Positions 1,768 to 29,530 of a DNA stretch of 64,000 nt are shown one piece after another. Position 1 is the stretch's first letter; every line of letters starts with the position of its first letter. Made by a program: the position numbers and the translations under genes. Source of the DNA: Craspedostauros australis (Eukaryota > Bacillariophyta > Bacillariophyceae > Mastogloiales > Achnanthaceae); contig JAMXDE010000014.1 of assembly GCA_026770025.1 (NCBI GenBank), positions 1,240,001 through 1,304,000 on the forward strand, given 5' to 3'. Below the pieces are notes generated by a model. The model made no database searches, was not told the origin of the DNA, and worked only from the letters and a program-made list of their open reading frames with translations.

Positions 1768-2428
1768 TGTTAGGAATCGAGGGTACGACTCTGTCGAAGA
1801 TACCCATGATTTCCGCAACTCCCAACATTATTCGTCACACCTTTGGATATTATTCATTCCACCCACGAACCAAATCACACATGACTGACCTCAGTCTTAC
1901 CAAGTAAATCAGCCTGTCCTCCATGAATCAAGAAAAGCCACGACATCGGAAAACAGGACGTCCCAGCATCAGACACGGAATCATGATCAAACCAAATATC
2001 GACGTCATGGTGAAGGAAGATGGTGACTGACAGATTGGTGATCACCCCATCTGGAGAACAAGACACGTGCCACTCACGGACTAGAACAATTCAGAAAGGT
2101 CATCAAGCATGACACCAATCGTAGAGTTTGGTGTCAGGAGATCAAAAGAGAAACGCATGACTGTGGAATCGTACCACAGCGAATGTAGATGATGATATGC
2201 ATGACGAGATGCATGATGATGATGCCTGCGGATTGGATTGATGAATGCAAGCGAGAGGTTCATGATGATGAGATGCATGAATGCAACAGTATAACATGAT
2301 GCTGCTGCAGAAGATGCTATATGAGAAATGAAAGTTGAAAGAGCTGAAGAGAATGAGCTTACAGTTCTAAGACAGTACAATCTAACAACCAAATAGTTCC
2401 TACTAACATTAACCCCGGATTTCCAACA
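1768..2428. mobile_element. Short TIR element (MITE-like), copy 1
   Basis: This 661-bp interval opens with TGTTAGGAATCGAGGG and closes with CCCCGGATTTCCAACA, the same pair of asymmetric termini that bound the element at 3370-4155. Subterminal sequence also matches: an imperfect hairpin (GGGTA...TACCC) at the left end and an AGAACTGT-like motif in the inverted right end. It contains no coding sequence. Flanking hexamers (AAGATG on the left, TTCGTC on the right) do not match, so the target duplication is lost or the copy is rearranged. Confidence 0.6.
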
Positions 2429-2521
2429 TTCGTCTTAATTCGTTGGCTAGTTGATATTATTCATTGCAGTAAGGTGGCCATGAGGTGGATCATAAGTGAT
2501 AGTCTATCAGTCTACACACGC

Positions 2522-4413
2522 CTAGTCGTGACCCATGCCTTCGCGAGCGGTCAGAAGCGCCTTGTCTGGATCGAATGCAGGGTAGCCGTTCCCAAGTTCG
2601 ATTTGCGTGATCACAGCAACAGCATGAAACACAGTTTGGTGTTTGTCGACATGGTGGCGCCATTTCTGGCCTAGACGACCCCACTGCTTGAGTCTGCCGT
2701 TGATCGTTTCGTGACGAGCTCGCAAGATACCATCAGCCTTGTACGTTGGGAGGAACACGGAATCATCGCCCCTGTACCCCTTGTCTGCCAAAACGAGTTC
2801 GCCTCGGCGCAGTTTGCCTTTCAGCTCCATGCGAAACAACGTGAGATCATTGGCCAAGCCACACGGGAACGGTCCATTCACCCAGACAATTTCGCCGTTC
2901 GTGATGGACACGGCAACTTCGTACCTCAGTCCTGCAGCATGGAACTTTTGCGAATACCACACTCTGTTGAACGGTCTTGGTTCGTTGGTGCGGAAGTCGG
3001 TCCCGTCCACAGTCATGAACGCACTAGTGTGTTCCGATGCGCCGAGCATACGATTCTCCCAAATGATCTGTTGGACCCCAATGAGTCGTGTATCGTGTTC
3101 AGTCGTGGATGAAAATAAGGGAAACAACGCGTGGTGAGGGTGGGCGTTTCAGTCAGTCCCAGTTGGATCCTGTGTGGCGGTTGACATTCGCATTGCAATC
3201 AATGTAGTCGTAGCATGTTCAAATTGTCGCGCAATAGAGCAAGATGTTAGACTGTCCTTACCACATCATCCTTCAGATCCGCTATCAACTTCGCCATGGT
3301 CCACGCCCATTTGCGAAAGGTCTTTGGTAATACCTGCATCATTCGTGCCACGACTGTCTCCGCAAGATATGTTGGAAATCCGGGGTAGTAGTATAGTCTA
3401 ATGCTTATTAAACTGTACCGTTTCAGAACTGTGAGAACAACATCTTCATTTCTCGTTTCCTCAAGTCGCTTGTTCATGATAATGCTGGAGGCACCCTGTA
3501 GTTGCTCCTGCATTCATCATAACAATCCTCCTCCATTCACATCTTGTTGTTCATGACAGGTGTATTTCATCATGCTTGTTCATAGAGGTCTCCTCCTTCA
3601 CTCCTGCGGTGCATGCATGCCGATGCTCGATTCACTCTCTTCTGATCAGGCATCCATCACTCATTCAGTACACTCTTCCGTGTTGTTCACTCACTCTTCT
3701 CACATGTTCACTGGTGGTCACACTTGGTTCAGAACATGGAGTTCTGGCACGATTAGTCCAGTCCTTCGATGATGCTCCAGTCCGCGCTTTGTTCTCCTTC
3801 GGCGGTTCTCTGCCAGTCACGTAATCATGTTCTGAGTTCTGATTGACACAACAGTGATAGCGATTTCGCATAGATATTTCGGTTCGACTGGTCAACCCTC
3901 GTGCTTGGAACACTTCGGTGTTCCAGTCTCCCTTTTGCATCCATCGTTCGCCATGTTAGTTCGCCAATCATCTCAAAACATGTCACATCATTAGTCTGTC
4001 CGTCTTCCGTCATACTCTTGACACACAGAGGAGGAGGTCCACAATCGACTTGGGAGCGTGTCCGACTTTGGTAGATCAATCAGTCTATTTTTGGTATTTT
4101 GGGAGGTGCGGCAATCTAGGATAACACGGCATAGTCGCACCCTCGATTCCTGACAAAGATACATTCGGAGAAACGCGCACATCCACAGGAGATGTTTTGG
4201 CTTCACATGGTCGGGCAAGAGGTTCGCCCCAAGCAAGTCATCCCACAGGAGGTGCAAGATGGAGGGATCTGTGCCAAATACGGACCGATAGTCTCTCGTG
4301 AGCAAGTTTGTCACGTGCTCGGCCCCAGCCAAATCCAGATTCGTGCCAATTAAGGCGAATCCTTCAACAGCAAAAGTTCCATCAGCAACCGTGTGAGGGT
4401 CTGTTGGCACGTC
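2522..4413 (-). pseudogene. PIF/Harbinger transposase, interrupted (copy 1)
   Basis: A Harbinger-type DDE transposase on the minus strand, close in sequence to the copy at 13079-14156. The likely start is the ATG at 4411-4413. The N-terminal exon reads to ..FLRMYL, is cut by the element at 3370-4155, and resumes as YLAETVVARMM. A donor site (GTAAGG at 3261-3256) and acceptor before 3067 define an intron of about 194 bp. The second exon (3067-2522) holds the catalytic core: TVDGTDF (first Asp), VLADKGYRGD (second Asp) and RARHETINGRLKQW (Glu). Apart from the insertion the reading frame is intact: the duplicated AAGATA plus element is the only visible lesion. Harbinger transposases cut and paste their own element in the nucleus, usually with a second ORF product. 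Confidence 0.85.
3370..4155. mobile_element. TIR element inserted in Harbinger gene, 6-bp TSD
   Basis: The 786-bp element begins TGTTGGAAATCCGGGG and ends CCCTCGATTCCTGACA; these termini are imperfect inverted repeats (11 of 16 positions). It is flanked on both sides by the hexamer AAGATA (3364-3369 and 4156-4161). Removing the element and one hexamer rejoins the transposase codons for FLRMYL and AETVVARM exactly as in the related gene at 13.1 kb. The duplication and precise gene interruption show it was mobile. No transposase is encoded within, so it is probably non-autonomous. A 6-bp duplication does not fit Harbinger (3 bp), mariner (TA) or PiggyBac (TTAA). Confidence 0.85.
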
Positions 4414-6090
4414 CATGGTTGGTTCGTGAATGCGTGCTGTGGGCTGGCGTGTGGTGCTCACTTTGTGTGCGCAACGGTACCGTGTGCCATGTAGCAGCTT
4501 GCTCTGCAAAAAACAATCGATACCCAATCCACACAGAGTGGAGTAGCACTAGAGCAGAGCAGAGCAGAGCAGAGCAGAGCAGAAGAGGACAGTGATGCAG
4601 CACAGAATTGGGAAGAGTACAGCATCAACTTGCCTGCCATTTTGTTGCTATTCTGCTGCATCGTATTTCTGTTGGTGTTTTTGGCGCTCGTGAACAGAAA
4701 CTGCAACAAGTGTGCATCTCCTGTTGATGAACGCAGGCCACAACGGAGGTGGATTTAGTCGCACGATGGGAGAAGCGTCGTACAGTCGTCTGTAGAGGAG
4801 TCTAATTTTTCGCGAGAAGCCTACGACTAAAAAGCACGACTGTTCCGCGATTCGACGCGGTCGACTAAAAAATTTGAAACGAGTCTTGGATTAGTCTTCT
4901 AGATGAACCGAAGTACCGCTACAATTCGTGGGACACAGTTAGGCGACACCTCGCCCCACCCGTTGGACAAGAATGCAACGGGAACAACCGCGAGCGTGCT
5001 CGTCACTAGGCGAGCGTATTGATGACATGTGCCACACCGTGCATGGGCACCGCTACCAACTTCGCTACCAACTCTGCAACAATGTCACCTGTGTTGTGCC
5101 TGCCAGAGACAAAAGCATCGCAAGAACTATCGCTGAGAAACAGGAGGTGCCGATTTGTACGGTACAGTACTCCAGTACTCCTTTCGTAGAATACTACTCA
5201 ACGGTAGCACCCAACGACAGTTACGAAATGCAACTTGTCGTTGGTAGGAACGAACCCGAGGAGGCTTGGAGGGAAACGCGAATAGGAGAAGCGATTGGGG
5301 GAGCGTTGAAGCCGGGAATGGAAAGAGAGAAGAGGAATTGGGAAGAGAAACCACATCCAATTCCACGAAGGAAATCCTGAGCGTTCCGTCTAGTTTACTC
5401 CTTTTGTTCGTGACAATGTAGCGATGAAGTGAAATACAGCACTGGAGATAAGGCAATAATCCCGTCTCCATTTCCCATGGGGGAAATGGAGAGCGATTCA
5501 TCGATGATTCCTGTGGATTACCGTTGGATCGCCACGACGATTGCGTGGAAATCTATTCGTCTCGGTAATCCTCCCTCCCCATCGCCATCACCCCAACCTG
5601 ATGGATCGCCATGGCAAGCGGATCGGATTAGGCGGGAATCCGTCCATCTGAACAGTCTGTTGCAGTTTTTCCTCACCAACATTGTCCTCCAATCAAGCGT
5701 TCGTGTAGACTAACGGAAATGCTAGTTTGTCATGGGACTAAATCAAGCATTCAACCAATGAAACATCTACTTCCACATGGCCACACTGATCCAGTATGCC
5801 ATATGAAGGGGAAAGGAGCTTGAAAATTTGACAAGTTCAGTGTCTGTTGCAATCAAGACACCCTCTGCCAATTTTGTGTTCCCGATTTGTCTAGACTCAA
5901 TTGAAATTTCTGTTTCTCACAGTATCATCTATGCTGAATGCAACTAATGCAATTGTGGCTTGTTGGTAATCATCCAAATCATCATGCCAAGCAACATACA
6001 TAGCTTTTACTACAACATGTTGCTTCACAGGAGTTTGCAAAACCCTGCATTTACATCTCATGAATCAAAGCCAACACTGAGGTGCACACA
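4414..6090. other. Intergenic, no gene seen
   Basis: No supportable gene. The stretch contains a short AGAGC repeat (4551-4580) and a hairpin (5466-5491, 11-bp arms around ATGG). From roughly 5700 onward it shares stretches with the region upstream of copy B (about 9740-10073), for example a TTTGTCTAGAC motif and CTGAATGCAACT. This marks the last few hundred bases as the 5' flank of the copy A unit. Confidence 0.6.
4551..4580. repeat. AGAGC pentanucleotide microsatellite
   Basis: Six perfect tandem copies of AGAGC, followed by AGAAG. Confidence 0.9.
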
Positions 6091-6366
6091 ATGCCACGAC
6101 GCTGGACACAGACCTGCCACCAAGTCCAACTCCTAAAACAGAAGATCAGGAGTGGTGAAATCCCCCCTGAGCAATCCTGGCGACAGGTTTGGAACAACAA
6201 TGAAGAAGCAAGGTGCTTCATCGAACCAGAATTCAAACATACCCTTCGTCGACTCCGCCAGAAGGTTCTCGAAGAAAAACGTAAGTTCCTTGTTGACCTG
6301 AACAGCTGCTTCCTGCTGATGTCATGACATTCCTTTCCTGCATTGGCACTCACACTTTCTCAGGTT

Positions 6367-6442
6367 GCAGAGGCGCAATAGCGTCTCCCACCGTGACAGA
6401 GCTCGCAGAGACGCAATAGCGTCCCCCACCGTGACAGAGCTC
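6367..6442 (+). repeat. 38-bp tandem duplication causing frameshift
   Basis: Two adjacent 38-bp units, 6367-6404 and 6405-6442, differ at two positions. Copy B has one unit. Because 38 is not a multiple of three, the duplication shifts the frame immediately after the intron 1 acceptor; deleting one unit gives a translation collinear with copy B (..ASPTVTELAENARDIRDAAR..). Confidence 0.9.
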
Positions 6443-8003
6443 GCAGAGAACGCTCGAGACATCCGCGACGCTGCTCGCATGGTTCGGATCGAAATTCCCC
6501 CTCCCCTTCCAGACCCACACTCGGACCACGCACCAACATCAACCACGACTACAACACTCGCGCCTTCCACAGCACCAACTGCTCCCACACCATTCGCCCA
6601 AACACAAACAACTACCACAGACACATCAACACCAACCATGTTCACCCACCAACCACATCAACCAACCAACCAAAACAACAACAACATGGACATGAGCGAA
6701 TGGCTAAAGGAGAATGGTAACTTGAACCTGCCTGTCTTGCGCACTTGCTACCTGAGTGACAATGGTGCTCGCATCCTTGACCTCATGTTTCAAGTGCCAG
6801 GGGGCAGTTGTCTCGAGGATTTCACAGTGTCAGTGGTACCGGGGCATGTCTGTGCGCGTGGAGATGGAGCAGATGGCCGCGCTTGCTGACGTGGAGGCCG
6901 TCCACACTGTTCTTCGTGCCGCTGGCATGGCTGAAGGCAATTCTGTTGTGCCTTTCGCTGACGAGCAAGCCCGCCGCGACGCTTATGGCTCCTCGATCGC
7001 CAGCCTCAAGCGTTCGCCCAATGGCAGGCCCGTCCGTTGCCAGACCGTTAACCTACCGTTTGCGGTTAACTGGAGATTTGAAGAAAAGCAGCGATGGTGT
7101 GCTGCCTGGTGTGACATTAGTGGAAATCGAAATTCCTGACCCAGCCAATAATGGCTTTTCTAACGCCGGAGTTCTCCTTGTTCGCATGGTGGAGTTGCAT
7201 CCGGCCCAACCGCTTTTCTCGCGCGCGACACATGCCAAAAAGCCGCCTTCTACATACCCGATCGCGAACATGAACGCCGTTGCAGGCATTCCAACATTTA
7301 ACCGCGCGCCTTCCCACCACTCGATTGCGCGCGACGACAACACCTACACATCAAGCATTGCCACCTCGACGAATGTGTCAACACAACGCCTTCAAATCGG
7401 CGTTAAATCAAATGTGAGTACAGTGAAACGCGCTACTTATGGTTCTATTGTCGTTGCCTTCTTTCCAAGACTAACCCACTGCATTCATTCACTTTCTTTA
7501 TTGTTCTTTGTCATGTGACATGTCAGAGTGCAATTCGCTTGTCTGAACGTGGAAACGCAGCGTCTGTCCGTAGCTCGTCGCGCACTGTTCCAACTCGTAG
7601 CAGCAGGACCTCCATGCGCAGCTCCACCAGCAGCAGATTTGCTGCCTCTGCATCTCTGCGCCATAAAACCGGTCGCTACAACACTCGTCGTCGCCATGCG
7701 AAAAGAACACCACCACCACCAGCTTGGCGAAACAACATGGGCCGCGCCATGCGCCATGGCGCGGCCATGGAGACCTTTCAAGACAGAGAGATGATGCCAC
7801 CGCCACCATCCCTCCCACCAGGCCGTCTTCCAGTCATCACAATGGCGGAAGCAAGAGCTCTTGTGGCAGCTCGCCACCGGGAAGATGGCTTCTTGGCATG
7901 TGGACCTCGGGCAGCACAAGGCAAGGCAGCAGCAGAGGCACAAGACAAGGCAGAGGCACAAGACAAGGCAGAGGCACAAAACAAGGCAGAGGCACAAAAC
8001 AAG

Positions 8004-8687
8004 GCAGAGGTGGCAGCACAAGCAGAGGTGGCAGCACAGGCAGAGGTGGCAGCACAGGCAGAGGTGGCAGCACAGGCAGAGGTGGCAGCACAGGCAGAGG
8101 TGGCAGCACAGGCAGAGGTGGCAGCACAGGCAGAGGTGGCAGCACAGGCAGAGGTGGCAGCACAGGCAGAGGTGGCAGCACAGGCAGAGGTGGCAGCACA
8201 GGCAGAGGTGGCAGCACAGGCAGAGGTGGCAGCACAGGCAGAGGTGGCAGCACAGGCAGAGGTGGCAGCACAGGCAGAGGTGGCAGCACAGGCAGAGGTG
8301 GCAGCACAGGCAGAGGTGGCAGCACAGGCAGAGGTGGCAGCACAGGCAGAGGTGGCAGCACAGGCAGAGGTGGCAGCACAGGCAGAGGTGGCAGCACAGG
8401 CAGAGGTGGCAGCACAGGCAGAGGTGGCAGCACAGGCAGAGGTGGCAGCACAGGCAGAGGTGGCAGCACAGGCAGAGGTGGCAGCACAGGCAGAGGTGGC
8501 AGCACAGGCAGAGGTGGCAGCACAGGCAGAGGTGGCAGCACAGGCAGAGGTGGCAGCACAGGCAGAGGTGGCAGCACAGGCAGAGGTGGCAGCACAGGCA
8601 GAGGTGGCAGCACAGGCAGAGGTGGCAGCACAGGCAGAGGTGGCAGCACAGGCAGAGGTGGCAGCACAGGCAGAGGTGGCAGCACAG
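8004..8687 (+). repeat. Minisatellite, 38 x 18 bp, codes AEVAAQ
   Basis: Thirty-eight tandem copies of GCAGAGGTGGCAGCACAG (the first ends in A). In the frame of copy A exon 3 they encode AEVAAQ, an Ala-rich, probably helical repeat. The array seems to grow out of a less regular AEAQDK/AEAQNK seed just upstream. Because 18 is a multiple of three, other frames also stay open and give spurious ORFs. Confidence 0.95.
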
Positions 8688-8792
8688 GCAGAAGAGCATG
8701 GGCAGCTCTCCCTGAGCTACTTCCTCCACCAATTCCCAGGCCACACTGGGATTGGTGGTGAGGAGGATCATTCTCATGCAACAACCCATTGA

Positions 8793-10073
8793 CGATGTGA
8801 CCAAGTGAATGTGAAATGAAAAAGTGAAGTACACAACCCTAAAAATTAGCAGTGATTCAGTACCCTCAACTCTCTCTCTCTCTCTCTCTGTAATGTAGCT
8901 ACAGTTACATGTCATGAATGCATTGCATTGCTTTGTTGATGGCAAGGGGGGCAACTGGTGTGTGTGTGGAGGTTGCTTGGAAGTTGGAGCCAAAACTGTT
9001 CCAGATTTCGCCCGTTGGGAGCCACGCGAATTCTATATTAAACGCAGTAAATACAAATCGGCTTCTTCCAATACCGGTGGATTACCGCACCTCCCTGTAA
9101 ATCCCCCCTCTGGGATTGTCATGGCGAGTGGATTAGAGAGGTTTTGCATTCCACTCAGCCATTCCCGCGAGGGAGTCATAACCTGATAGAGACATTTTTC
9201 CGGGGGCGGCGAGAAATCACCCCCTCGCTCAGTGGAAATCATTTCCACTCAGAGAGTCCCGGCAAAAGTGTCACTTCCACGCGGAGATGTATGTTTATCC
9301 AATCAGGAAACTTCTATTGATGTCTACAATATTTTCATTTCTAGTTGAGTTATTGCTTCGAAACCATGCTAGTACTAAGATTATCGTTGCTCACAACAGA
9401 CTCAATAGACATATCCATAATGTACTCCAATTAGAGTATAGCCTTCAAAATTGTAATATTATATTGTCAAAATCTCCATTGATCTCCACTGATCGTCCGC
9501 CAAAGACTTCCAGGTCTAAAATATCTAGATTCTAATCAAAGCGGAATTTCATGAATGACTAGATGGACTAAAGGCAGTCCTTCCACGAACCAGCAATTCT
9601 TGAGAACTCTTGTTGGCACCATGTCGTATGTGACATGGCGCCTGGGGGCCTCTGAGTGGAATGCAAAACCTCTCTATTGGATCGGGTGGAAATCCCTCCG
9701 GCATGATTCCATCTCCAAAATTGTCGGTCGTGCTAGTTTGGAAATTCATGTTAGTTTGTCATTGGACGGAACGACCAAACCGGCTGCTTCCGCATTGCCA
9801 AACTGGTCGAGCATGTCATGCGTAGCCAACAGTATGTGGATTTTGAACTTTGACGAGTTAAGTCTCCGTTGCCGTCTATTTTGTCTAGTAGATTTGTCTA
9901 GACGAAACGGAATTTCTTGTTCTCAGTGTTATCCCTGCTGAATGCAACTTCTGCACTTGTTGCTAGCTATGCACAACAGCATGGACAGCATGGAGGCTAC
10001 TGCAACAAGTTGCCAAACTACACAGCCCTGCATTTACATCTCATAAACTACAGTCAACACTAAGGCTCACACC
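8793..10073. other. Spacer between copies A and B
   Basis: No gene. The first ~300 bp is a 3' flank shared with copies B and C: a run of TTTGTTGAT, a GTGTGGAGGT motif, TTCGCNCGTTGGGAGC and finally GGATTACC.C.CCTCCCTGTA (ending near 9090). A CT microsatellite lies at 8872-8889. The rest holds a 24-bp inverted repeat pair (9135-9158 / 9652-9675), a 19-nt palindrome at 9231-9249, and from about 9740 the 5' flank shared with copy A. Confidence 0.6.
9135..9675. repeat. 24-bp perfect inverted repeat, 493-bp spacer
   Basis: Bases 9135-9158 are the exact reverse complement of 9652-9675 (arms contain GGTTTTGCATTCCACTC). Inside lies the palindrome AGTGGAAATCATTTCCACT at 9231-9249. The arms could be outward ends of the adjoining A and B units or the TIRs of a small element between them; no target duplication was identified. 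Confidence 0.75.
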
Positions 10074-12252
10074 ATGCCAAGACGCTGGGCCCAAAGTAGC
10101 AAACAAGTCCAACTCCTAAAAGACAAGATCAGGAGTGGCGAAGTCTCCTCTGACCAAACCTGGCGCCAGGTGTGGAACAACAACAAAGAAGCCAGGTGCT
10201 TCATCGAGCCGGAGTTCAAAAATAACCTCCGTAAGCTCCGCAAGGTTCTGGAAGAAGAACGTAACTACACTGTTCGCATGGAGAGCTGCTGATGTCATGA
10301 CATTTCCCACCTGCAATGCACTCACACTTTCCCAGGTCGCCGAGACATCCGAGCGTCCCCAACCGCGACAGAGCTCGCCAAGAACGCCGCGGATATTCGT
10401 GACGCTGCCCGGACGGTTCGCATGGACATCGAGCTCCCAGACACACACCCAGACCCACACCCCAATCCCGCACCAACACCAACCACGACTACAATAGTGC
10501 CTACACCAGTACCAATTGCGCCTACACCAGTACCAATTGCTCCAACACCATTCACCCACACACACTCCCACACCACAGCCACACCAACACCAACACCAGC
10601 ACCAGCACCAACCATGTTTGCTTCCTCACCACATCAACCAGCCAACTACACCAAGAATGAGATGGATCTGAACGCATGGTTGCAGGAGAATAGTAACTTG
10701 AACCTGCCTGTCTTGCGCACATGCTATGTGAGCGACAATGGTGCGCGCATCATTGACCTGAAATTTCAAGTGCCAGGGGGCAGTTGCATGGAGGATTTCC
10801 ATGTGTCAGTGGTACCAGGAGGCATGTCTCTACTCCTCGAAATGGAACAGCTGGCTGCACTTACAGATGCGCAGGCTATGCACAATGTCCTACGCCCCAA
10901 TGGCCCCACGAACGGCAGTCCCGCTGTGCCTTTCGCGGACGAGCAAGCCCGCCGTGAGGCATATGGTTCTGCAATTGCAAGCCTCAAGCGCTCACCCAAT
11001 GGGAGGCCTCTCCGGTCGCAAACCGTTGAATTGCCGTTTGCGGTTAACTGGCAGTTGGAGAAAAGCAGTGACGGCGTATTCTCTGGGTTCTCTTTTGTTG
11101 AAATTGAAATTCCTGCTAACGGCAAACGCGATGCCGCTAACGCCAATGTTCTCATCGTTCGCATGGTGGCACTTCATCCGGCCCAACCACTTTTCCCTCG
11201 TGCCACTCACGTGAAGAAGTACGGGCATTCATTCCCGATTCGGAACATCGATGGACCTGTTGACATTCATGCTCCCAACAGATTCAGCCATCTTCGTAAC
11301 GCCCGCCAGCCACCGCGCGACACAAGGACATACGCCTCCAGCATTGCGACATCGACGAACGCGCGTTTTTATAGCGGACTAGCTACTGACAAACCCATGG
11401 TAAGTACTGTGACATGGCTATTTATTGCTTGCTTTCCTTTGCCTTCTTGCCAAGACTTACATGTCACATTCTTCTACTTTCTTTATTGTTCTACATGGTG
11501 TGACACAGAAGCCTCCATTCTATCTCACTAACTGCGGCCAGATGACGACTGTCCACAAAAGCAACAAGTTTGTCCATCGTCGGCCAACTTCTGTGCGCAG
11601 CTCGTCCCGCAGCGTGAAATCTTCAAGGAGCAACACCTCGAAGCGCAGTGTCAGCACCACCAGCAGCAGATGCCAAGGTGCTGCTGGTGAGAGCCACAAA
11701 AGCAGCAACAAAATCTGGTCGTTGCAACAACAAAAAACACCACCACCACCACCACCAACATGGCCTCCCCACACGGCCGTAGCAATGGCCAAGGGCACCG
11801 CCATGGCAGCTCACCATGATGCCATCCTCATGCCACTGCCACCACCACCATCACCACCTTTGGAGCTCTTGGCTGTGGCAACAGCAATGGCTGCAGCAGT
11901 TGCAGCAAACAAGACTGCAAGAGAGCAGCAAGCAACATTGGCTGCATCGAAGGCTTTCAACAAAGTGATAGGAGGAAAGGCAACAGAAGGGGGAGGAGCA
12001 GCACCAGCAGCAACAGGAGTGGTGCCAGCAGCAGGCTTCACTGCCTACATGCCTGGCACAATGATGGATGCATTCTCTGCTGCAACCAGCAAGGATGAAG
12101 AGGATGCACAGAGATCCCTCTCTCATTTTCTTCACCATCTCCCACCTATCACTGGAATTGGTGGTTTGAATGATGGAGATGGAAATGAGTATGATGGAGA
12201 TGGAAATGAGCATGATGGAGATGGAGATGATTATGATGAAGAAGAAGAGTAG
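10074..12252 (+). CDS. Unknown three-exon family, copy B (intact)
   Basis: Best model: join(10074-10260, 10336-11399, 11509-12252), 664 aa. Introns are 75 bp (GTAACT..CAG) and 109 bp (GTAAGT..CAG); both phases agree with the reading frames. Residues 1-95 are basic and helical-looking (MPRRW..QVQLLKDKIRSGE, WRQVWNNN, FIEPEF). Residues ~96-165 are a Pro/Thr-rich linker. Residues ~172-390 form a conserved domain with LPVLRTCYVSDNGARI, FQVPGGSCMEDFHVSVV, FADEQARREAYGSAIASLKR and LPFAVNWQLEK. Exon 3 has an Arg/Ser-rich stretch, polyproline, an Ala-rich segment, PAAGFTAYMPG, LSHFLHHLPPITGIGG and an Asp/Glu tail. I recognise no known domain; the alternating hydrophobic pattern hints at a beta-rich fold. 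Four copies or partial copies occur in this window, so it is a repeat-family gene, perhaps transposon cargo. Nuclear location is only suggested by the RS-rich stretch. Confidence 0.75.
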
Positions 12253-13078
12253 GAGATGCAAAATTCAGCCAGGTCGATGTGAAACAGAATGCAGAACAAA
12301 ACAGTGTAGTATTATCTGCATGTAATCAATGTGTAGCTGTGGTCTTTGTTGATACCCAATTGGGTTGGCAGAAGCAGGATGTGTGGAGGTGATGCTGCTG
12401 TGGATGCCCAAGTTGTTTCAGAATTCGCTCGTTGGGAGCTGCGGTAACCGTATAATACAGTCAGTAAAAAATAAGTGATTCGTGCTAAACTAGTGGATTA
12501 CCACGCCTCCCTGTATGGCCGCCGCCTTCTCGTACGTGGAGAGTGCGTAGTGCGTAGCGGTTCCAATGGTGGAGTCATCACAACAGGAGGGCACACATGT
12601 TCGGCACGTGTTCAAGTCGACACGGGATTGAGGCGTAGTAGGGCAGTCTACCAATCCATACAAGTCTTGCATTACACGCATACACGAGTCACCACAATTG
12701 TATTCTGTCGTCTGCGATGGATGCATGCCTGACTGCTCTGCGCTCTACTCCCGCGTTGATGTCACAATTCGCAGTAACCAGCGAAACAGACAGTCCAATT
12801 CATCACAGCATGTCTCCTTCCTGTAGGCCATGTAGGACACACAGATACACCGAAGGAGGGATCACACATTGCCCGTTGCAAATGAAGTTGTGGGAGGATG
12901 AAGCACGACTTCCACACTGAATGCCATACACACATGGTTTGAGTTGGCACAAACTGGTGCAGCTAATTCATAGACTACATGGTCATCATCAGGTAATTAT
13001 GATAGCAACAACAAGCCACTTCCTCCATGATCAGCAAACTTGACATTGTTACTATTGCCACTCAAAACGTAGTCTTCG
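12253..13078. other. 3' flank of copy B and spacer
   Basis: No gene. The first ~265 bp is the 3' flank shared with copies A and C: TCTTTGTTGATACCCA, GTGTGGAGGTGATG, CAAGTTGTTTCAGA, and GTGGATTACCACGCCTCC near 12,495. The remainder probably includes the left end of the Harbinger unit that follows; no TIR could be fixed. Confidence 0.55.
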
Positions 13079-14156
13079 TTGAAATCCACGCGAACTTGTA
13101 TTCCACATAGTCGAATCACTACTCAGGCACGACTCGCAAACACGGATTTGGCAGCGGAGAGTACCAGCGCTTGTGAGTTTGCGGCGGAAGGATTTTTGCT
13201 GATGGGAGATGATGTGGATCACCGTGACATGGACACTCTCAACAATGCACAGTTGTGGGATTTTCGTGGGATGTTTGGCACTGATCCATCCATCACTCAC
13301 CTCCTCTGGGAAGACCTGATTGGCACAGATCTTCTCCCCTGCAATGCGAAGCCGAAGCACCTCCTTTGGATGTGCTCGTTCCTCCGAATGTATTTGGCGG
13401 AGACAGTGGTGGCGCGGATGATGAACACCACTGCGAAAACTTTCCGCCAGTGGGCGTGGGTCGTGGCTCGGGCCGTTGAGGAGTTGCGTCATGACATCGT
13501 AAGTGCAGCACATGAGAACCCCGACCGATGCGAACTCTTTTTTTCCGCCTAACACGACTCACTCACAATTTCCGTTCGTGACTGCTCGTATCCATCTTGT
13601 TTGCCTACAGATTGACCTAGACAACCGCTTTATTGACGCAGACAGAAATGGGAGTGCTTTCTTGACTGTCGACGGCACCGACTTTCGCACTAACGACCCC
13701 AAACCGTTTAACAAGGTGTGGTACTCGCACAAGTTCAAAGCTGCTGGTGTGAGGTATGAAGTGGCTGTTTCCATCAGTAGAGGAGACATTGTTTGGGTGA
13801 ATGGCCCCTTTCCGTGTGGATACATGAATGACCTGGCTATCTTCCGCTCTGAGCTTAAACAAGCAATACGGGCAAACGAGGTTGTGATTGCTGACAACGG
13901 CTACAGAGGAGATGACAAAGTGTTCCCACCCACGTTCAAAGCTGATGGCATTCTTCGTGCTCGCCACGAAACGATTAACGGTAGATTGAAGCAGTGGAGC
14001 TGTTTGGGACAGAAGTGGCGACACCACGTGGACAAACACCACACAGCCTTCCATGCGGTGATGGTCATCACCCAAATCGAACTCGGTAACGGCTATCCAA
14101 CGTTCGACGTCGACAAGGCGCTGTCCACAGCCCGACAGCGAATGGGTCACGATTAG
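13079..14156 (+). CDS. PIF/Harbinger transposase (copy 2, core intact)
   Basis: Two exons, join(13079-13498, 13611-14156); the intron is GTAAGT..CTACAG, 112 bp, phase 0. The N-terminal part includes FGTDPSITHLLWEDL and FLRMYLAETVVARMM, a helical region. The second exon is a DDE_Tnp_4-type catalytic domain: TVDGTDFRTN (first Asp), VVIADNGYRGDDK (second Asp) and RARHETINGRLKQW (Glu). The protein ends at RMGHD. No in-frame ATG marks a good start: the first is at 13202, and the matching start in copy 1 aligns to a non-ATG codon, so an upstream exon or a lost start is possible. The enzyme would excise and integrate Harbinger DNA transposons. The orientation relative to copy B differs from copy 1 relative to copy A, so they do not form one fixed unit. 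Confidence 0.85.
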
Positions 14157-14300
14157 ACTGTACATTTCATTTAAATTAAACACACGTGTTGCATGGAATT
14201 TATCAGTCTAATAATTGAACGTCTCCGAGCCTTGGCACCACACGAATTGTATTAGCGCAACGCTGAATCTCTAACAATAGCGACACCCGTCGACCAATCA

Positions 14301-14507
14301 TATTAGAGCACTATCGAAAAATCACAAGGGGAGAGCAAAAGCAAAGTACCATGCCGGGATTCGAACCCGGAACCTCAGTTAGAATTACTGGTGCTCTACC
14401 GTTGAGCTACAGGCGATGCGATTGCTGAACCGAACACAAGTGAAATTTATAGATAGTGGGGGCTACGGGAGTAACGTACTTTAGCACTATTCGATTTTGT
14501 GCTGATA
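14301..14507. repeat. 207-bp direct repeat with tRNA-like core, unit 1
   Basis: Identical over all 207 bp to 14758-14964. It begins TATTAGAGCACTATCGA and ends GCACTATTCGATTTTGTGCTGATA-like sequence, so a GCACTAT(T)CGA motif occurs at both edges. It contains the tRNA-like sequence at 14347-14416 on the minus strand. Confidence 0.95.
14347..14416 (-). tRNA. tRNA-like sequence, probably pseudogene or SINE head
   Basis: The minus strand carries a box-A-like TAGCTCAACGGTAGAG, a canonical box B GGTTCGAATCC, a D stem GCTC/GAGC and a T stem CCGGG/CCCGG. The anticodon arm pairs as CAGT/ACTG around a loop AATTCTA. That loop lacks the usual U33, so the anticodon (TTC or TCT) is uncertain. The acceptor arms (TCGCCTG and CATGGTA) pair poorly. 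A TTTT run follows downstream on that strand. Internal Pol III promoter elements are intact, but the molecule is unlikely to be a functional tRNA. Confidence 0.55.
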
Positions 14508-14757
14508 CTCCCCTACGCTACGACCGTGGACCACCTGCTCAAGAGCACTATGACGGAAAGTTGTCATCTCCCGCGTCTCCCCATCTCGGGGCACCCTCAT
14601 TGTTGGGTGGCTAATACTGCCAGACGAAGTGGGAGTGCTGCCGTAGCAGACAAGTGTGAGACTGGGTCGAAATGCGGTGATCGCAACGCGCCCACGAAGG
14701 CGTGTTGTGCAAGGTTGTCCTAACTCAGCGATGTAGAACTAGCTGCGACTGTTAATC

Positions 14758-14964
14758 TATTAGAGCACTATCGAAAAATCACAAGGGGAGAGCAAAAGCA
14801 AAGTACCATGCCGGGATTCGAACCCGGAACCTCAGTTAGAATTACTGGTGCTCTACCGTTGAGCTACAGGCGATGCGATTGCTGAACCGAACACAAGTGA
14901 AATTTATAGATAGTGGGGGCTACGGGAGTAACGTACTTTAGCACTATTCGATTTTGTGCTGATA
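14758..14964. repeat. 207-bp direct repeat with tRNA-like core, unit 2
   Basis: Exact copy of 14301-14507, offset by 457 bp. The 250-bp spacer (14508-14757) shows no coding sequence. The pair could be an LTR-like miniature element, two SINE insertions, or a tandem duplication of a 457-bp unit. Confidence 0.95.
14804..14873 (-). tRNA. tRNA-like sequence, second identical copy
   Basis: Base-for-base copy of 14347-14416, with the same intact A and B boxes and the same poor acceptor and anticodon arms. Confidence 0.55.
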
Positions 14965-15890
14965 AATCAGAAATCTCCACTTCTCTTACCTTTTCCGTTC
15001 CGAACGGAAATTTGGTCAAAATTCCGTTGTGTCAAATTTGTGTCACATTTCGCGTCGCAAGAACCGTTTTCCCGTCAATCACAGATCCAAAATGTCGCGG
15101 AAATGGATTTCTTGCCAAGATGAACCTCTCTGTCCAATCAGGACAGACTTCGGTCTTGGGTGCGACACATGCGAATCTTGCCATGACCTTCTCAAGTGAA
15201 TATGATCAATCGTGTGATCGTACAACAAACAACATCGTGAGAAGACATAATTCACAACACGGGGTATTGTGGTGTTTTGTTCATTGACTTTTGCCAACTC
15301 TACTTCACGCAGTAACACGCACATTTGTCGTGTTGTCTCCGTGTTAATTTCACTTGCAATTGCATGAGACCTGCCATGCCTCTCTCATGCTCACAGTTCC
15401 AAGATCTCAATCTTTGGAGCTTGTCAACATCCTACCATACGAATAACTCAATAATCAACAATATCCTCACCAACAACAACGATCTGATCACTCTGCGTTT
15501 TCGGTGCGGTACCCTACGACCCATCTTCGATTTCGTTCTAACATTGATGATTGATCGATCTTGATTGCTTTTCTGAACTTTCTGTTTGTTCAATCATACC
15601 ATTGACCTTTGTCCATCAAGAGCATGGGTTGTGTCCACTATATGTTGGTTTCCGTTTCTTCAGGTGGGATACAACTCCTACCCACTGCCCCTGCACCCTT
15701 TCTGGTCTGACATCACCGACAAGGTTGTTGTTTTGTTGGTTTGTATCGGGACATGCTGTGTCACATGTTCATGGTTCTCATACCAAAAGGAGGACACGGT
15801 ATCTTTCTTGGTACGACTGGGAGCGGGCACGTTTGTGATGGGTCACTGGTGTGATCAACAGAAGTTGATTTTATTCAGTTGTGATTGATA
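14965..15890. other. Intergenic, no gene seen
   Basis: Short ORFs only, none with recognisable motifs. The stretch ends in the terminus of a TIR-family element whose interior should lie to the left, but the matching left end could not be found. Confidence 0.5.
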
Positions 15891-15950
15891 TTATTGGGAG
15901 GTGCGGAAATCATGGGTATCTTGACAGAGTCGTACCCTCGATTCCTGACA
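15891..15950. mobile_element. Solo terminus of the TIR element family
   Basis: About 60 bp matching the right ends of the elements at 4155 and 16962: TTGGGAGGTGCGGAAATC, GGGTATC..GTACCC pairing, ending CCCTCGATTCCTGACA at 15950. No partner start was found within about 1 kb to the left, so this is a truncated copy. Confidence 0.6.
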
Positions 15951-16128
15951 TCTATTGTGCGCCGTCATTCCAAGATCTTTGGTCACCTCCGAGCATCAGA
16001 GGTTGCACCATCAACTCCTCCACCTCAAATCAGCACAGCATACCAACTCCATCTAAGCATGAGCAGCCCTGGAACAATTCAGCATCTTGTCGAAACAACT
16101 GGTGACAGCAGCAACTAGATGGGAGGTA

Positions 16129-16490: not shown

Positions 16491-16962
16491 TGTTGGAAAT
16501 CCGGGGTTATAGTAGTAATCTAATCTGGTATTAGATTGTACTGTTTTAGAACTGTGAGATCAATCTCATTCGTGCTCTTGGGTGATGAAGGGATAACCTC
16601 CATTTCTCCTTCTCACCGTTGCTCCCTTTCAGGTGACTCCAGAGTGTCTCTGTCCGTCGAACTGCATCGACTGCATGGGGATTAATTGATCGCATCATCC
16701 ATGGTTCTCAGCTCATGTACGGATGCATCCCTAGTGGTCAAGTCCCAGGTTTGTGTTCATTGTAATGGTGGACCATGGACAGACTCTGTCATGGGACATG
16801 ACTGGATGTGATACAACACACAGGTGATTGTATGAGGTGGGACAAGCTACAAGAGTGTCCAAGTGCAATCTATAGAATTGATTCGGATTAGTCTGAATGA
16901 TATTATTGGGAGGTGCGGCAATCATGGGTATCTTGGTAAAAGCGTACCCTCGATTCCTGACA
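16491..16962. mobile_element. Short TIR element (MITE-like), copy 3
   Basis: A 472-bp interval starting TGTTGGAAATCCGGGG and ending CCCTCGATTCCTGACA, in the same order as the element at 3370-4155. Internal motifs are shared: AGAACTGTGAGA near the left end and the GGGTATC..CGTACCC hairpin at the right. Flanking hexamers (TGCTGC / ATGGTG) do not match. It lies just upstream of the surviving mariner catalytic region. Confidence 0.65.
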
Positions 16963-16996
16963 ATGGTGCGTCGCAGGCGAAGACCCTCCACCCTGA

Positions 16997-19203
16997 TACG
17001 GCAACACAGCCACGACCACAATCCAAACGATGATGTTTCTCGCAGCAGTGGCGAAGCCACGCATTGATCCTGTCTCTAGCGAGTGGCTCGATGGCAAGAT
17101 TGGATGCTGGCCAACTGGTGATGAGCTTCCTGCCCATCGCACTTCAAAGAATCGAGTCAAAGGGACTCTGATCTGGAATTCTCGATTTGTCGCAAGAGGA
17201 ACCTACACGGATCTCTTGATGGATAGAGTAGTCCCTGCTATCATGGAGAAGTTCTCAAAAGGGAAAAAACAGTACACATCCAACAAGACATGCCCCAGCT
17301 AATCTACCTGGGAAGGACTTCGCTTCAATTTGGAATGGTCATTGGCAGTTCTTTGTTGCAACATACAAATGCAAGTGGGGGACAGGTTGATCGAACTTGT
17401 GACACAACCTGCAAGGAGCCCTGACTTGAACATTCTTGATCCTGGGTGCTTCTGCAGCCTGCAATCCACGCAACTACGAATGAGATGTATGACAATTGAT
17501 GAACTCGTTGCGCACATGGAAACTATGTTTCGTGAATACGATTCGTCAAAACTCTTGCATATGTTCATCACGCTGGAAACTCTGATGAACAAGATCATAG
17601 AGACTGAGGGTAGCAACAAGTTCAAGATCCCTCATCTCAACAAGGCCAAACTGAAGAAAGAGGGGCGGACACCAGATCATGTGCAAGAAAGTCGGCAGGC
17701 GCTTCAAATCAAAGAACAGCACAAGAATGGGCCTCAGTCGCAACCACTGCCACCAACGCAACGCAAGCCAGCTTCTCGTCCAGCACGATCCAAGACAAAT
17801 CGCAATCGTGCCGGCAAAGCAGGATCGCAACAGGCACAGCACCTGGCACCCCAACTACTCGCACTGAATTGGCGATAGCAATCAATGGATTGGCAGCAGC
17901 AGCGAGCACCACCAACAGCACCAACGATAGCACCACCGCCATCGACAGCGGCAGCAGCAGCAATCCCATGGCAGCCACAGCGACAGCCATATCCGCAGCA
18001 ACAACCACACTAATGGCCACTGCCACAACAAGACACAGCAGTGCCAGCAGTAGAAGCACCAGTTTTCTTGTGACAGCCAAATCTGCACCAACAACCATAC
18101 TATTGGCCACTGCTGCAACCACCACACCTACCACCACACCTACCACCACACCTACCACCACACCTACCACCACACCTACCACCACACCTACCACCACACC
18201 TACCACCACACCTACCACCACACCTACCACCACACCTACCACCACACCTACCACCACACCTACCACCACACCTACCACCACACCTACCACCACACCTACC
18301 ACCACACCTACCACCACACCTACCACCACACCTACCACCACACCTACCACCACACCTACCACCACACCTACCACCACACCTACCACCACACCTACCACCA
18401 CACCTACCACCACACCTACCACCACACCTACCACCACACCTACCACCACACCTACCACCACACCTACCACCACACCTACCACCACACCTACCACCACACC
18501 TACCACCACACCTACCACCACACCTACCACCACACCTACCACCACACCTACCACCACACCTACCACCACACCTACCACCACACCTACCACCACACCTACC
18601 ACCACACCTACCACCACACCTACCACCACACCTACCACCACACCTACCACCACACCTACCACCACACCTACCACCACACCTACCACCACACCTACCACCA
18701 CACCTACCACCACACCTACCACCACACCTACCACCACACCTACCACCACACCTACCACCACACCTACCACCACACCTACCACCACACCTACCACCACACC
18801 TACCACCACACCTACCACCACACCTACCACCACACCTACCACCACACCTACCACCACACCTACCACCACACCTACCACCACACCTACCACCACACCTACC
18901 ACCACACCTACCACCACACCTACCACCACACCTACCACCACACCTACCACCACACCTACCACCACACCTACCACCACACCTACCACCACACCTACCACCA
19001 CCAACAACAGCAACAACAGCAACAACAGCAACAACAGCAACAACAGCAACAACAGCAATTGCAGAGCAGAACAGAACAGGAGCAGACACAAAGGCAACAG
19101 CTGTAGCAGGAGCAGACGCTCCTGTGTCGTAGTATCAATAGAACTTAATGGTATGTACTCATTGATTCATTCAATTTCGCTCTCTGTACATATTAAAGCA
19201 TGA
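16997..19203 (+). pseudogene. Mariner/IS630-like transposase 1, broken
   Basis: Fragments in shifting frames match a Tc1/mariner-type transposase. 17030-17302 has MFLAAVAKPR and KIGCWPTGDELPAHRTSKNR ahead of an HIQQD segment that needs a frameshift. 17330-17878 has QPARSPDLNILDPGCFCSLQ, the NSPDLN-type block near the third catalytic acidic residue, then MTIDELVAHME and FITLETLMNKII. The first Asp block (HxDEKWF) is not found. After another frameshift near 17,800 the frame enters an Ala/Thr-rich tail, the 12-bp array and an Asn/Ser run. Multiple frameshifts and a missing catalytic block make this a pseudogene. Confidence 0.7.
18121..18996 (+). repeat. Minisatellite, 73 x 12 bp (ACCACACCTACC)
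   Basis: Seventy-three tandem copies of ACCACACCTACC with no variant seen, followed by a CAACAACAG run to about 19060. In the frame open from 17869 it would read TTPT repeats, a Thr/Pro stretch at the 3' end of the mariner pseudogene. Confidence 0.95.
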
Positions 19204-23034: not shown

Positions 23035-24839
23035 ATCGTGAATGTACCATCAAATCTCCTTCTTCTTGTGACATCATCATATCCATGTGTATGTCAGTGC
23101 ACTTCTGTGAGCATTGTACCGCAGTTGTATTTACCGCAACTCCCAGTACAGAACAAAGGTGACACCAACATGGACCAAGCCCAAGAAACCACCTTGACAT
23201 GCTCGGATCAAGTCGATGACGCCATATACAAAATGGTTATGTCTCTACATACAAGGCATGCCCAAGAAAAAGGAGCTACATCAGTGAACCTCCTACTCCC
23301 TTGTGATTGGCATGAATAACGAGAAGAGGGCACATCGTAATTCACTGCCCTGTTGCTGGTATCCCAGTGAAAGGCAGAACCCAGAAGGCCAGACCTCGCC
23401 ACCAATTCCCATCAACACGCTTCGATAGATTATTCATCACACGTTCATAAAAACAAAATCCATCTCATGCTTTCTTGCTCACATCAACACTTCATCATTC
23501 TCCAATTTCATCACTTTGACCACAAGCAAACCGTGTACATCACACACAATGAAATCACATGTTGCAAACAATCCATCATCATCCCACAATACCCAGAGAA
23601 CAACAATCATCATGCCAACACTAACACTATAAACACAACACAAATACAAAAAACAACCCAACCTCACCCTTCTACTTTGAATTGATCACTCAGACAAAGC
23701 TGTGCAGAAATTATCCTTGACAAACAAATCAGAATCTATCAGGCAACATGACAAGATGTGTGAGTTCACAAGAGGGTGTTGCATAAAAAAGACGAATCCG
23801 GTATTGGCAACGCTTATCTTGAAAGAATGTCCAAATGCCATTACTTGGCGACCATGAGGAATCGGTGAACAAACAGCAGCGAAGGGAGCAGATGTCACTT
23901 TGTCATCCCCAAGTGAGGAGCAGTCATCGTCACTCATCGCAGCACCTGAGTTCTGTTAAACGTTGGATTGCATGCTTTTCAGACGTAGCGCACCAGGTTT
24001 GTAGCACAGTGAGTGGCAGGATTTGCAGAGTAGACTGGTACCAAGCAAACAATGAGAAGAGGTGCATCAATGTCAACATCACTCTTGTGATCATTGAAAT
24101 TGAAAGATGAATTTTGATTACACTGGACTTTCTTGTCAGCAGCACAGTGCAAGATGAGATTGGCGATGATGTGAGGGATGTGATTAAATTTTGGATTAGC
24201 ACTACTGGGGTGATTGTGAATTGTGAGCAATCAAATCACTTTTAGAATCAGTGATTTTGATTGTGTGAAAAATAGCACGTGTGACCATGTGACATCGCGT
24301 AAAATGAAAGTGTGATATGAAGATGAACATGAGAGCAAAGCAACACATTTCCATGATGTTTGGAAGTTGGAGCTATCGATGTTCGTGATAATCCCATCCT
24401 AGTCCAGACCAGAAGCCTTGAGGTGAGAATCATGACCAAACAACCCAATGCGCTTCTTGATGATTGTGCCAAATTGGATGTCTTTCAAATTGCATCAGAT
24501 GGCATGTTCTTGATTCATCATGGAAGTGTTCTGCACAATTGTTTGCAAAGAGGTATGGATGGATGTAGAATGTTCTGTAATGAGTGTAGATGTACGATTC
24601 ATGCTGATGGTGAGACCTCGATACCATTGAATTTGTTGATGTGTTGGTTCGTTTTCGTCTGTTGTGGGAGAAGCGGCAAATTGTCAATTTCAAAGATAAT
24701 GCTTTCAGGAGTGCGCCTGCTGCACTGATCGATGCCGTCACCTGTATGTCGTGGAGTGGAGTGGATGCAGGTTGGACAAACAATTCGAATAATGGTTATA
24801 CTAGGTGAAATATAGCTGTGTGCCGATAGGTATTGAAGG
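23035..24839. other. No supportable gene
   Basis: About 1.8 kb holding only short ORFs on both strands (for example 24360-24728 plus and 23686-23937 minus) without recognisable motifs. AT-rich in places. It may be the decayed 3' part of copy D. Confidence 0.4.
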
Positions 24840-25463
24840 TTGGGTCAGAAAATCAATGGCATGCATCGCGTGGTCTGGCGTCATCTTGAATTGATTGCTC
24901 ACTTGGATGGGGAACAACTCTCTGTGAAAGCGAAAGGGCTATTGGTACACATGACGCATGCTGTGAACTGCAAGCGCATAAGATTCGCTTCGTTTGCGTT
25001 GTCCCCGAAAAGAACGAATTTTGAAATGGGAGGGAAGTGTCTTGTTGAGGCGGTCAATCAGCTCCTTGTCCGTTGCTGCTGATGACTCAAGTTCCTGATT
25101 ATGTTTGATTCCAACCTCCAAGACGCACCCTTGTTCCTTGATGGACACATTCACGTCCCCTTAGCAAGTCCCACCTGGGAGTTCGAAAGTGATTTCAAGC
25201 ACCTTGCCACGCTTCTGGGGAGTACACGTGACACACAACAGGCAAGAAGATTGCGCTGTTCTTGTTCGTCCAAGCTGCAATGGATCAGGCACGACTGGGA
25301 CCAACTTGCAAGGGTGTCTCAGCTGTACTGTTTTCACAAGCATGCCACAACGTGGAACAGACTCAGCAGAAGTAGCACCAGGAGAAACCACAGATGGTGC
25401 AGGTCCAGGAAGACGTGAGGGATCACTAGGAGCAGCAGTCACTGTGTTGATTACCACACACAC
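24840..25463 (-). pseudogene. Unknown family, copy D (divergent, broken)
   Basis: Minus-strand fragment matching the central domain of copies A and B at protein level: VLEITFELPGGTC aligns with IIDLKFQVPGGSC, VNVSIKEQGCVLEVGI with FHVSVVPGGMSLLLEM, and ELFPIQVSNQFKMTPDHA with ELPFAVNWQLEKSSDGV. An in-frame TAA interrupts it directly after PGGTC, near 25160, and another stop follows VYQ at 24939-24941. The N-terminal part is Pro/Ser-rich like the linker of copy B. It is clearly older than A or B. Confidence 0.5.
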
Positions 25464-25837
25464 TATTTAGCCTGTCCCACCTAGTCGTAACAAATAGCCC
25501 AAATCTCAAATCGGTGAATCGTGACGATCTTCGGTGGCTTCTCTTGTCTGTTCGAGTGAGCTCATGTGTGGTGTCCTGGTTTGAAGAGGGAAACATAACA
25601 TTGCACTGGTGGGGTAGTCAAGTGAGGGTTACGTTTTGCTGTTGGAGGTTGGAAATACTATTTTCGAGTTTTCATCTCGGACACACTGACTAGGCATTCC
25701 GGAGAACTGAAAGCGATTTTCGTCCCTGTGGAGGGACACCCCTCCTAGATTTGGGGAGGACCAAGAAGACGATTAGGCACCAATGCTTGCACAAGAGAGT
25801 CCTGTTTTGTTACGTTGAAAAACCAAGGGAAACACCA

Positions 25838-26511
25838 GCGACCGTCTGCGAGGCGCAGTAATTACCTAGTTTAGTCAGAATCCCTTTTTAATCCATGTAA
25901 TAGCGCATTGTCGTGGCTCTCAAAGAGCGAAATCTGAAACAACTTGGACATCAGCAGCAACATCACCTCCATACACCCAATTTTTGCCATCCCAACTGGG
26001 TATCAACAAAGACCAAGACAACACATTCACAAAATTCAAATCCAACTACGCTATACAGACAGATGTTGGTGTGTGGGGTTACTGATTCACTGTTAGTTTT
26101 TTGGGGTTCACTACACTGTTTCAATTTGCATTCATTTTCACATTGACCTGGCTGCATTTTTTGTCTCCTACTCCTCTTTATCATTGTCATTATCATTATC
26201 ATCATAATTATCATCATTCCAACCACCAATTCCAGTGTAACCTGGAAATTGGCGGATAAAATGAGAGAGGGAGAACTACCCATCCTCTTCATACCTGTAG
26301 TGCGCCAGGCATGTAAGCAGTGAAGCCTGCTGCTGGTGCCACTCCTGTTGGTGCTGCTGCTGCTGCTCCAAATTCTTCTGGTGTTTTCCCTCCCATCACT
26401 TCATCAAAGGCAATTGATTCAGCCAAAGCTGCTTTCTGTTGTCTTGCAGTCTTGGTTGCTGCAGTTGCAGCAGCCATTGCCTTTGCCACAGCCGCAAGCT
26501 TCGAAGGTGGC
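25838..26511 (-). other. Unknown family, copy C: 3' half joined to mariner 2
   Basis: On the minus strand, 26511-26289 encodes KAMAAATAATKTARQQKAAL, AFDEVMGGK and PAAGFTAYMPGAL, close to the tail of copy B (AMAAAVAANKTAREQQATL, PAAGFTAYMPGT). Noncoding sequence then continues to match: CTCTCTCATTTT, ACTGGAATTGGTGG, a GATGATAATGA-rich stretch equal to the acidic tail of B, TCTTTGTTGATACCCA, GGAGGTGATG, CAAGTTGTTTCAGATTTCGC and a final TAATTACTGCGCCTC near 25,850. So the last exon and 3' flank of the family lie directly behind the mariner transposase frame. Confidence 0.65.

Positions 26512-28493: not shown

Positions 28494-28506
<13 letters not shown>
26512..28506 (+). repeat. 1,995 bp of pure G/T on the plus strand
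   Basis: From 26512 to 28506 I see no A or C on the plus strand; the sequence is an irregular mixture of GGTGGTGGTTG, GGTGGTTGTTG and GTTGTTG blocks. Stop codons need A together with T, so all six frames are open, which explains the many very long ORFs. In the minus-strand mariner frame it reads as His/Gln/Pro/Thr/Asn runs. Confidence 0.95.

Positions 28507-28563
<57 letters not shown>
28507..28563 (-). repeat. CAA/CAG trinucleotide run
   Basis: TTG repeats with occasional CTG on the plus strand. On the minus strand in the mariner frame they give Asn/Ser-rich sequence after AKIIEPH. It joins the coding part to the G/T tract. Confidence 0.85.
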
Positions 28564-28564
<1 letters not shown>

Positions 28565-29530
28565 GAGGCTCAATGATCTTGGCTTTGCTCTTCCTGGGCG
28601 TCTTCTTCTTCTTGCCTTTCTTCTGTTGCTCAGCCTCCTCATTGGCTCTGGTGGTCGCGACAATTTGCTTCTCCAGCAACGGAATGAGGCTGCTGGTTGT
28701 TGGCAGGCTCGTTTTAAGGCATTGCAGACCACTGACAGCCATCACCTTGAGCGCATCATCGTACATACCTTTGATGTCAGGCTTGGCATATTTGAAGCCA
28801 GCTGATTTGCCTTTGTTGCCTGTTGCAGTTGGCTTCTTGGTGGTTGTGTTGGTTGCCTCATCCTCCTCCTCCTCCAACGCGAAGTCCGTGTGAGACACAG
28901 TCACACCAATCTCATTGCCGTCCTCGTCAGTTTCAGTGAACGTTTGTTTCCGCACGTTCATGCTCAGTCCCTTGCGCTCCGTCACAAATTCGTCACCTCC
29001 TTCCGCAGCACAAATTGCGTAGGCGATCTGATGGTGGCGAACATACGCGCGAGCGACCTTGTCCAGCCCAAATTGCTCCCAACAGGTTCCACAAGCACCC
29101 CACAACGCTTCGGTGGTGAACATGCGACTCCTGTAGTGCTTACTTTGATGTGCTGACACGTGTTTCGACATCGCTGGGAATATCGTATCGTCTTTCACAT
29201 TCGTGATGGGAGAATTTGATGGTTGGAAGCGTAGGTGCCATCCGCGACTGTCGAACTCCTCGTTGATGAACCTGAGCAGTTCCGTGTCTCTGTGTGGCCC
29301 CGCGCCATCCATCGGTACCGAATCACCACGTTCTTGCCCGTTTTCGCCTTGATTTTGCTGGCGAGCGAATCCAGTGCGGGGATTTCTTTTTCGCGGAAGA
29401 ATTTCTTGAGGCTGTATTTTGGCTTGGGCTTATCACGATGACCATCTGTTTACTTGCTGCCTGTGATCTCCAGTGGTTGAAAGTACAGTTCACCCTTCTT
29501 GCAAGAGATTTTGTTGGGATCAGGAAGGTG

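Follow-up and report, generated by a model that had tools for sequence, protein, structure and literature searches.

A PIF/Harbinger transposon group in the diatom Craspedostauros australis whose partner gene appears to encode a small-heat-shock-protein-like domain

What kind of gene is it that stands twice in tandem, with introns at the same places and no recognized family, in a 64,000-nucleotide stretch of the diatom Craspedostauros australis (contig JAMXDE010000014.1, positions 1,240,001 to 1,304,000; the window, throughout this text)? An earlier note, made from the letters alone, proposed that the two copies, here gene A and gene B, move together with their flanks within a mobile element, of which the gene would be the cargo or the only gene, the element itself being of an undescribed kind. 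The first part of this proposal is borne out by inverted ends, target duplications and dispersed loci; the second is not, as the gene shares the space between the inverted ends with a PIF/Harbinger transposase (DDE_Tnp_4). We consider gene B to be, quite probably, the partner gene of the open reading frame 1 (ORF1) type in a group of PIF/Harbinger transposons, with elements of about 6 kb, inverted repeats of the GGAGGCGCGGTAATC type, insertion at CNG sites that duplicates 3 bp, and two divergent genes, those for a DDE transposase and for the B-type protein.

The two genes are made up of the following parts:

10074-10260, + strand: gene B exon 1, encoding a 62-residue three-helix domain (AlphaFold2 predicted local distance difference test, pLDDT, 81.6)
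10336-11399, + strand: gene B exon 2, a Pro/Thr linker and then the central domain at 10662-11195 (HSP20/CS-like by model)
11509-12252, + strand: gene B exon 3, read by eye as a basic Ser-rich stretch, a Pro/Ala-rich part, an acidic tail and the stop
6091-6280, + strand: gene A exon 1, the three-helix N-terminal domain (splice comparison with B, tblastn, alignment)
6364-7413, + strand: gene A exon 2, the central domain, frameshifted
7527-8792, + strand: gene A exon 3 region, containing an 18-bp tandem array at 8002-8692

Joined at these coordinates, stop included, the three exons of gene B remain in frame and give the 664 amino acids claimed for them. Gene A has the same three-exon plan, with an exon 1 matching that of B, introns at the same positions and an exon 2 that is likewise homologous; because this second exon passes through three frames (matches to B at 6656-6844, 6843-7085 and 6994-7374), we regard gene A as decayed. 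The array in its exon 3 comprises 38.4 copies. An alignment of A and B at 70.8% covers 5871-7232 and 9878-11209, respectively, and includes an upstream flank in common; a homologous 5′ flank is thus present, but extends over about 200 bp at the search sensitivity used and not over the several hundred reported earlier. The 3′ flank of B (12328-12509) is shared, at 74.7%, with a partial copy further along the window (C, at 26027-25850), but for A and B the within-window similarity search reported no such match.

Is this a local gene family or a dispersed one? Searched against its own genome, the central domain of B yielded 71 matching rows, equal to 69 loci on many contigs (gene A accounts for three rows). 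Internal stops are absent from 66 of the 71 rows, and several rows share identical scores across different contigs. Surrounding stretches of about 10 kb were compared for 20 copies (L009-L028) and form long collinear blocks: between L009 and L010, which lie on different contigs, identity is 99.97% across 5,884 bp, and L025 does not differ from L026 across 6,801 bp. The genes fall into subfamilies with 22-38% identity to B, and their ratio of nonsynonymous to synonymous substitution (dN/dS) is low. Purely local tandem duplication, an outcome that the earlier note had itself allowed for, is excluded by the 69 dispersed loci.

What travels with the gene is a transposase of the DDE_Tnp_4 type, which has its N-terminal part in an exon of its own and lies upstream on the opposite strand (Pfam, tblastn). 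The PF13359 profile scores above its cut-off at 2525-3148 (E-value 4.9e-10) and 13503-14153 (4.6e-10) in the window, as well as in L009, L025 and L027, and tblastn detected the two transposase parts together with the two gene exons in 18 of the 20 compared loci; L017 and L022 have no transposase in the examined stretch. In six more distant loci (L029-L034) tblastn shows the DDE exon of the group transposase in none of the stretches (0/6), L030 and L031 showing the N-terminal part only (tblastn) and L034 holding a different DDE_Tnp_4 gene, while the genome-wide listing places group transposases just beyond the stretches of L029 and L030. For the genome-wide count, the best 150 of 350 candidate transposase matches were taken, and the group was defined by identity rather than by a tree, as rows with at least 56% identity to the L009 query. 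Among the matches listed, 65 rows belong to this group; a partner gene is found within 6 kb of 55 of them and within 30 kb of 62, but within 30 kb of none of the other 85 rows (47-54% identity). Many of these 85 rows occur in identical-score groups. Counted from the gene, a transposase lies within 9 kb of 56 and within 30 kb of 63 of 71 rows, these being the 69 central-domain loci and two further ones, with gene B of the window counted as paired solely via the transposase of the neighboring element A, 7.6 kb off, its own being gone. In a different count, based on 68 transposase rows, a partner no more than 9 kb away was present for 56 of 69 genes and for 55 of the 68 transposases. An element with a single gene is rejected, since the gene pairs with a transposase.

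Such pairing also bears on whether the gene could be a passive passenger, captured from the host and without any part in transposition. HSP20 and CS, the types that its central domain resembles by model, are indeed common among host proteins (10 rows for either type in the genome), but near-constant pairing across subfamilies so far apart, with the two-gene layout conserved, dN/dS low and a group transposase within 30 kb of most gene rows, makes a mere passenger very improbable. By its place, its constraint and its plausible layout, the gene suits the role of an ORF1.

The ends of the element, which the earlier note had proposed to define from multiple copies, are as follows: GGAGGCGCGGTAATC (up to 2 mismatches) and its inverse flank 12 of the 20 loci as terminal inverted repeats, and these 12 copies with both ends found measure 5.9-6.3 kb. 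The triplets flanking them are CNG at all ends, left and right being identical in 11 of the 12, with L020 (CTG/CAG) as the exception. One element, L028, carries GGAAGCGCGGTAAA at its two ends in place of GGAGGCGCGGTAATC, with TGTG flanking both; L027 showed one end, the right, and L024-L026 the right (3′) end alone, with 3 mismatches. An uninterrupted paralogous site is available for L009, whose flanks, joined at a single CAG, match L020 at 7457-7715 in 246 of 259 columns; within the fetched loci and the window this is the one insertion of the 12 with such a site. The joined flanks of L011 have 38 further matches in the genome that span the junction, at 70-77% identity. The elements that hold genes A and B both end in the motif:

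9080-9094, + strand: 3′ terminal inverted repeat of element A (16-base motif, 1 mismatch), then CTG
12496-12510, + strand: 3′ terminal inverted repeat of element B (16-base motif, 1 mismatch), then CTG

Across five Markov controls, with up to 3 mismatches, the 3′-type motif was matched 0 times and the 5′-type once; the left end of element A was not found in the motif search of the window. Short repeats at 1768-1842, 4091-4155, 15877-15964 and 16894-16973, 82-88% alike, contain near matches to the end motif and are possibly short non-autonomous relatives. The adjacency and common orientation of A and B might have pointed to a tandem family of host genes unrelated to transposition, but loci on many contigs, the transposase pairing, the inverted ends, the target duplications and the uninterrupted site together refute it, and we give it practically no credence.

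The element as a whole can be counted as a member of a known superfamily, because Harbinger-like elements are already known from another diatom, Thalassiosira pseudonana (PMC2806351; the published sources are cited here and below from excerpts), which has the superfamily in common with the elements described here; a second protein is not mentioned in the excerpts on it. With rice Ping/Pong and zebrafish Harbinger3 our elements share a DDE transposase, a second gene, inverted ends and a 3-bp target duplication (PMC2836001). PIF/Harbinger transposition needs two element proteins; one of them, that of ORF1, binds to the element ends and brings the transposase into the nucleus (PMC2836001).

In terms of target sites, CWG as well as TWA are counted among the usual ones of Harbinger elements. 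The CNG found here differs from the TAA of mPing (PMC2836001) and from the TWA of Tourist (PMC12595863). A further difference from the PIF/Harbinger elements of PMC2836001 lies in the second protein, which here has no recognizable Myb-like domain and carries a central HSP20/CS-like modeled fold; it is this partner protein that we regard as the new part.

What, then, is the partner protein? The whole B protein matches no Pfam family at E-values up to 1, in keeping with the earlier failure to recognize its central domain. At the same threshold 34 central domains gave six scattered sub-threshold names (best E 0.012), HSP20 (PF00011) not being among them, so that the family's own profile does not claim the domain; a PDB sequence search returned one chance-level row (E 1.5). 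Structure prediction of the central domain, another step suggested by the earlier note, gave a model with the beta-sandwich strand order of an alpha-crystallin/CS domain, and 50 of the 50 structural matches listed are of HSP20/CS types, the best scoring above the stated background of 7-8. Support for HSP20 at the level of sequence is weak and local. The fold of the central domain thus appears, by modeling, to resemble HSP20/CS domains: the match to a host domain, which the earlier note had weighed against its own proposal, is found at fold level, while the sequence stays foreign to Pfam. Compared with small heat shock proteins and CS/p23, the domain lacks the Pfam HSP20 match, has a helical insert of about 50 residues, and is without any sequence match in its C-terminal half. 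The exon-1 model consists of three helices with a weak homeodomain/FF likeness. Fourteen exon-1 domains, compared with Pfam at E up to 5, gave seven sub-threshold names (best DHX37_C, E 0.016), none of them a Myb family; Myb_DNA-bind_4 and Myb_DNA-bind_3 had no match in the genome, which is uninformative given that the control genomes were matchless too. Judged from the two models, the B protein seems to combine a small, DNA-binding-like head with a small-heat-shock-protein-like domain.

Two other readings of these domains have to be weighed. The protein could be an ordinary, diverged Harbinger ORF1, in which exon 1 encodes a Myb/SANT-like domain beyond the reach of Pfam and the central part is a lineage-specific dimerization domain, its HSP20 likeness being convergent or a modeling artifact. 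This would accord with the Myb-like ORF1 described for the superfamily (PMC2836001), with the 62-residue three-helix make-up of exon 1 and with the slight HSP20 signal in the sequence, but no Myb family emerged for any of the exon-1 domains and the structural matches of the central domain agree throughout, and we hold this reading to be unlikely, albeit deserving of serious consideration. A capsid-like or other viral structural protein is brought to mind by two phage "minor capsid protein" names among the BFVD rows (E 0.013 and 0.21). However, no match in the BFVD structural search reached an E-value of 0.001, a phage small heat shock protein has the top Foldseek probability (0.84, E 0.041) in the 50 rows listed, and a scan of IMG/VR revealed no relative. 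With neither search giving a significant match or relative, a viral or capsid origin is rejected as barely conceivable.

For a PIF/Harbinger partner protein of this build, the following way of working can be proposed. The three-helix domain of exon 1 would bind the element ends, and the basic stretch could serve as a nuclear signal, taking the protein and the transposase into the nucleus as ORF1 proteins of the superfamily do (PMC2836001). The HSP20/CS-like central domain might form dimers or oligomers, or might dock to the transposase, a host chaperone or a chromatin factor, and these contacts would bring both element ends together. A parallel is offered by the silencing-suppressing MBD7 complex of Arabidopsis, in which two HSP20-like proteins, LIL/IDM3 and ROS5/IDM2, were purified together with HDP1 and HDP2, both derived from Harbinger (PMC5462541). 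There, too, alpha-crystallin-domain proteins and Harbinger-derived proteins occur together, but as separate host proteins (PMC5462541); in the present elements it is the transposon itself that encodes the HSP20-like domain, and the parallel may be one of association only. By analogy one may speculate, at rather long odds, that a transposon lineage possesses an alpha-crystallin-type module of its own, linked in one protein to a head that binds the ends, that this module oligomerizes on element DNA or recruits host factors and so helps the element escape silencing, and that the plant association reflects an older or recurrent link between Harbinger and HSP20-like proteins. Our literature search found no paper on a Harbinger element that encodes an HSP20 or alpha-crystallin domain.

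Further remains of these elements lie within the window:

2428-9097, + strand: element A, a PIF/Harbinger copy (blastn blocks to L023 at 2428-3369, 4156-8098 and 8516-9097, 87-92% identity)
2546-3025, - strand: DDE_Tnp_4 catalytic exon of the element A transposase (Pfam PF13359, tblastn)
3370-4155: 786-bp insertion splitting the N-terminal exon of the element A transposase (gap between blastn blocks to L023)
12510-14247, - strand: T2, a reversed copy from the L009 subfamily, internally deleted (blastn to L009/L010)
23753-25838, - strand: D, a copy from the L027/L028 subfamily, internally deleted and interrupted (blastn, 65-73% identity in blocks)
25848-26527, - strand: C, the 3′ end of a B-like element (blastn, 11841-12310 to 26527-26110 and 12328-12509 to 26027-25850)

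The transposase of element A extends overall over 2546-4371 (- strand) and is interrupted, with N-terminal matches at 3259-3369 and 4132-4371 (tblastn). T2 has kept its transposase (13181-13501 and 13647-14132, + strand, tblastn) and has lost the partner gene save for a 132-bp piece. The two partial copies noticed earlier on the minus strand do exist, but belong to two subfamilies: C has a B-like 3′ end, and the gene pieces of D (24012-24113 and 24816-25223, tblastn) resemble the distant L027 type. At 25848 C has a diverged inverted end with 3 mismatches, a level reached once, in the same orientation, by one of the five controls. Overlapping C, a 1046-residue open frame (26289-29429, - strand) has as its middle a Pro/Thr/Asn/His array with 13-bp and 55-bp periods, and at its C terminus it matches the gene B tail; from its sequence, an unrelated-looking N-terminal part appears to be linked by the array to part of element C. 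A distant DDE_Tnp_4 copy with one stop lies at 42842-43318 (- strand). Outside the window, copy L023 is adjoined by a gene for DUF6824, a domain frequent in diatoms.

The remainder of the window holds other repeats and host genes. A 22-bp unit, TGCCACCTGATCGCTGGTGGGG, is repeated in 82.4 perfect copies at 31086-32897 and is open in several frames, and a 12-bp unit in 73.7 perfect copies at 18118-19001, within a long open frame. A 212-bp direct repeat (14296-14507 and 14754-14964, 99.5% identical) includes a block that is tRNA-like by eye; ARAGORN, run with the bacterial code, reported no tRNA in the window. A retroelement of the Copia type was recognized by eye at 33687-39296 (- strand), with RVT_2 at 34789-35646 (E 3.6e-13), and an open frame at 29453-30112 (- strand) has a 30-bp repeat in 6.4 copies and parts that look mariner-like by eye, with no Pfam match at E 0.01. 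Host genes are those for Paf1 (46848-48323, - strand, E 1.4e-25) and a Y-family DNA polymerase (50985-52364, - strand), its IMS domain (E 1.6e-25) spanning residues 116-383.

The element family accounts for some 70 gene copies in the genome that would otherwise be anonymous. In the usual account of Harbinger transposition, ORF1 proteins are Myb-like and bring the transposase to DNA and into the nucleus. A partner with a chaperone-type fold, if true, would mean that the same job can be done by another design, and would offer a natural test of what an ORF1 must supply. It would also unite in one element an HSP20-like domain and Harbinger proteins, a link that, in the literature consulted, has so far come from separate host proteins of Arabidopsis.
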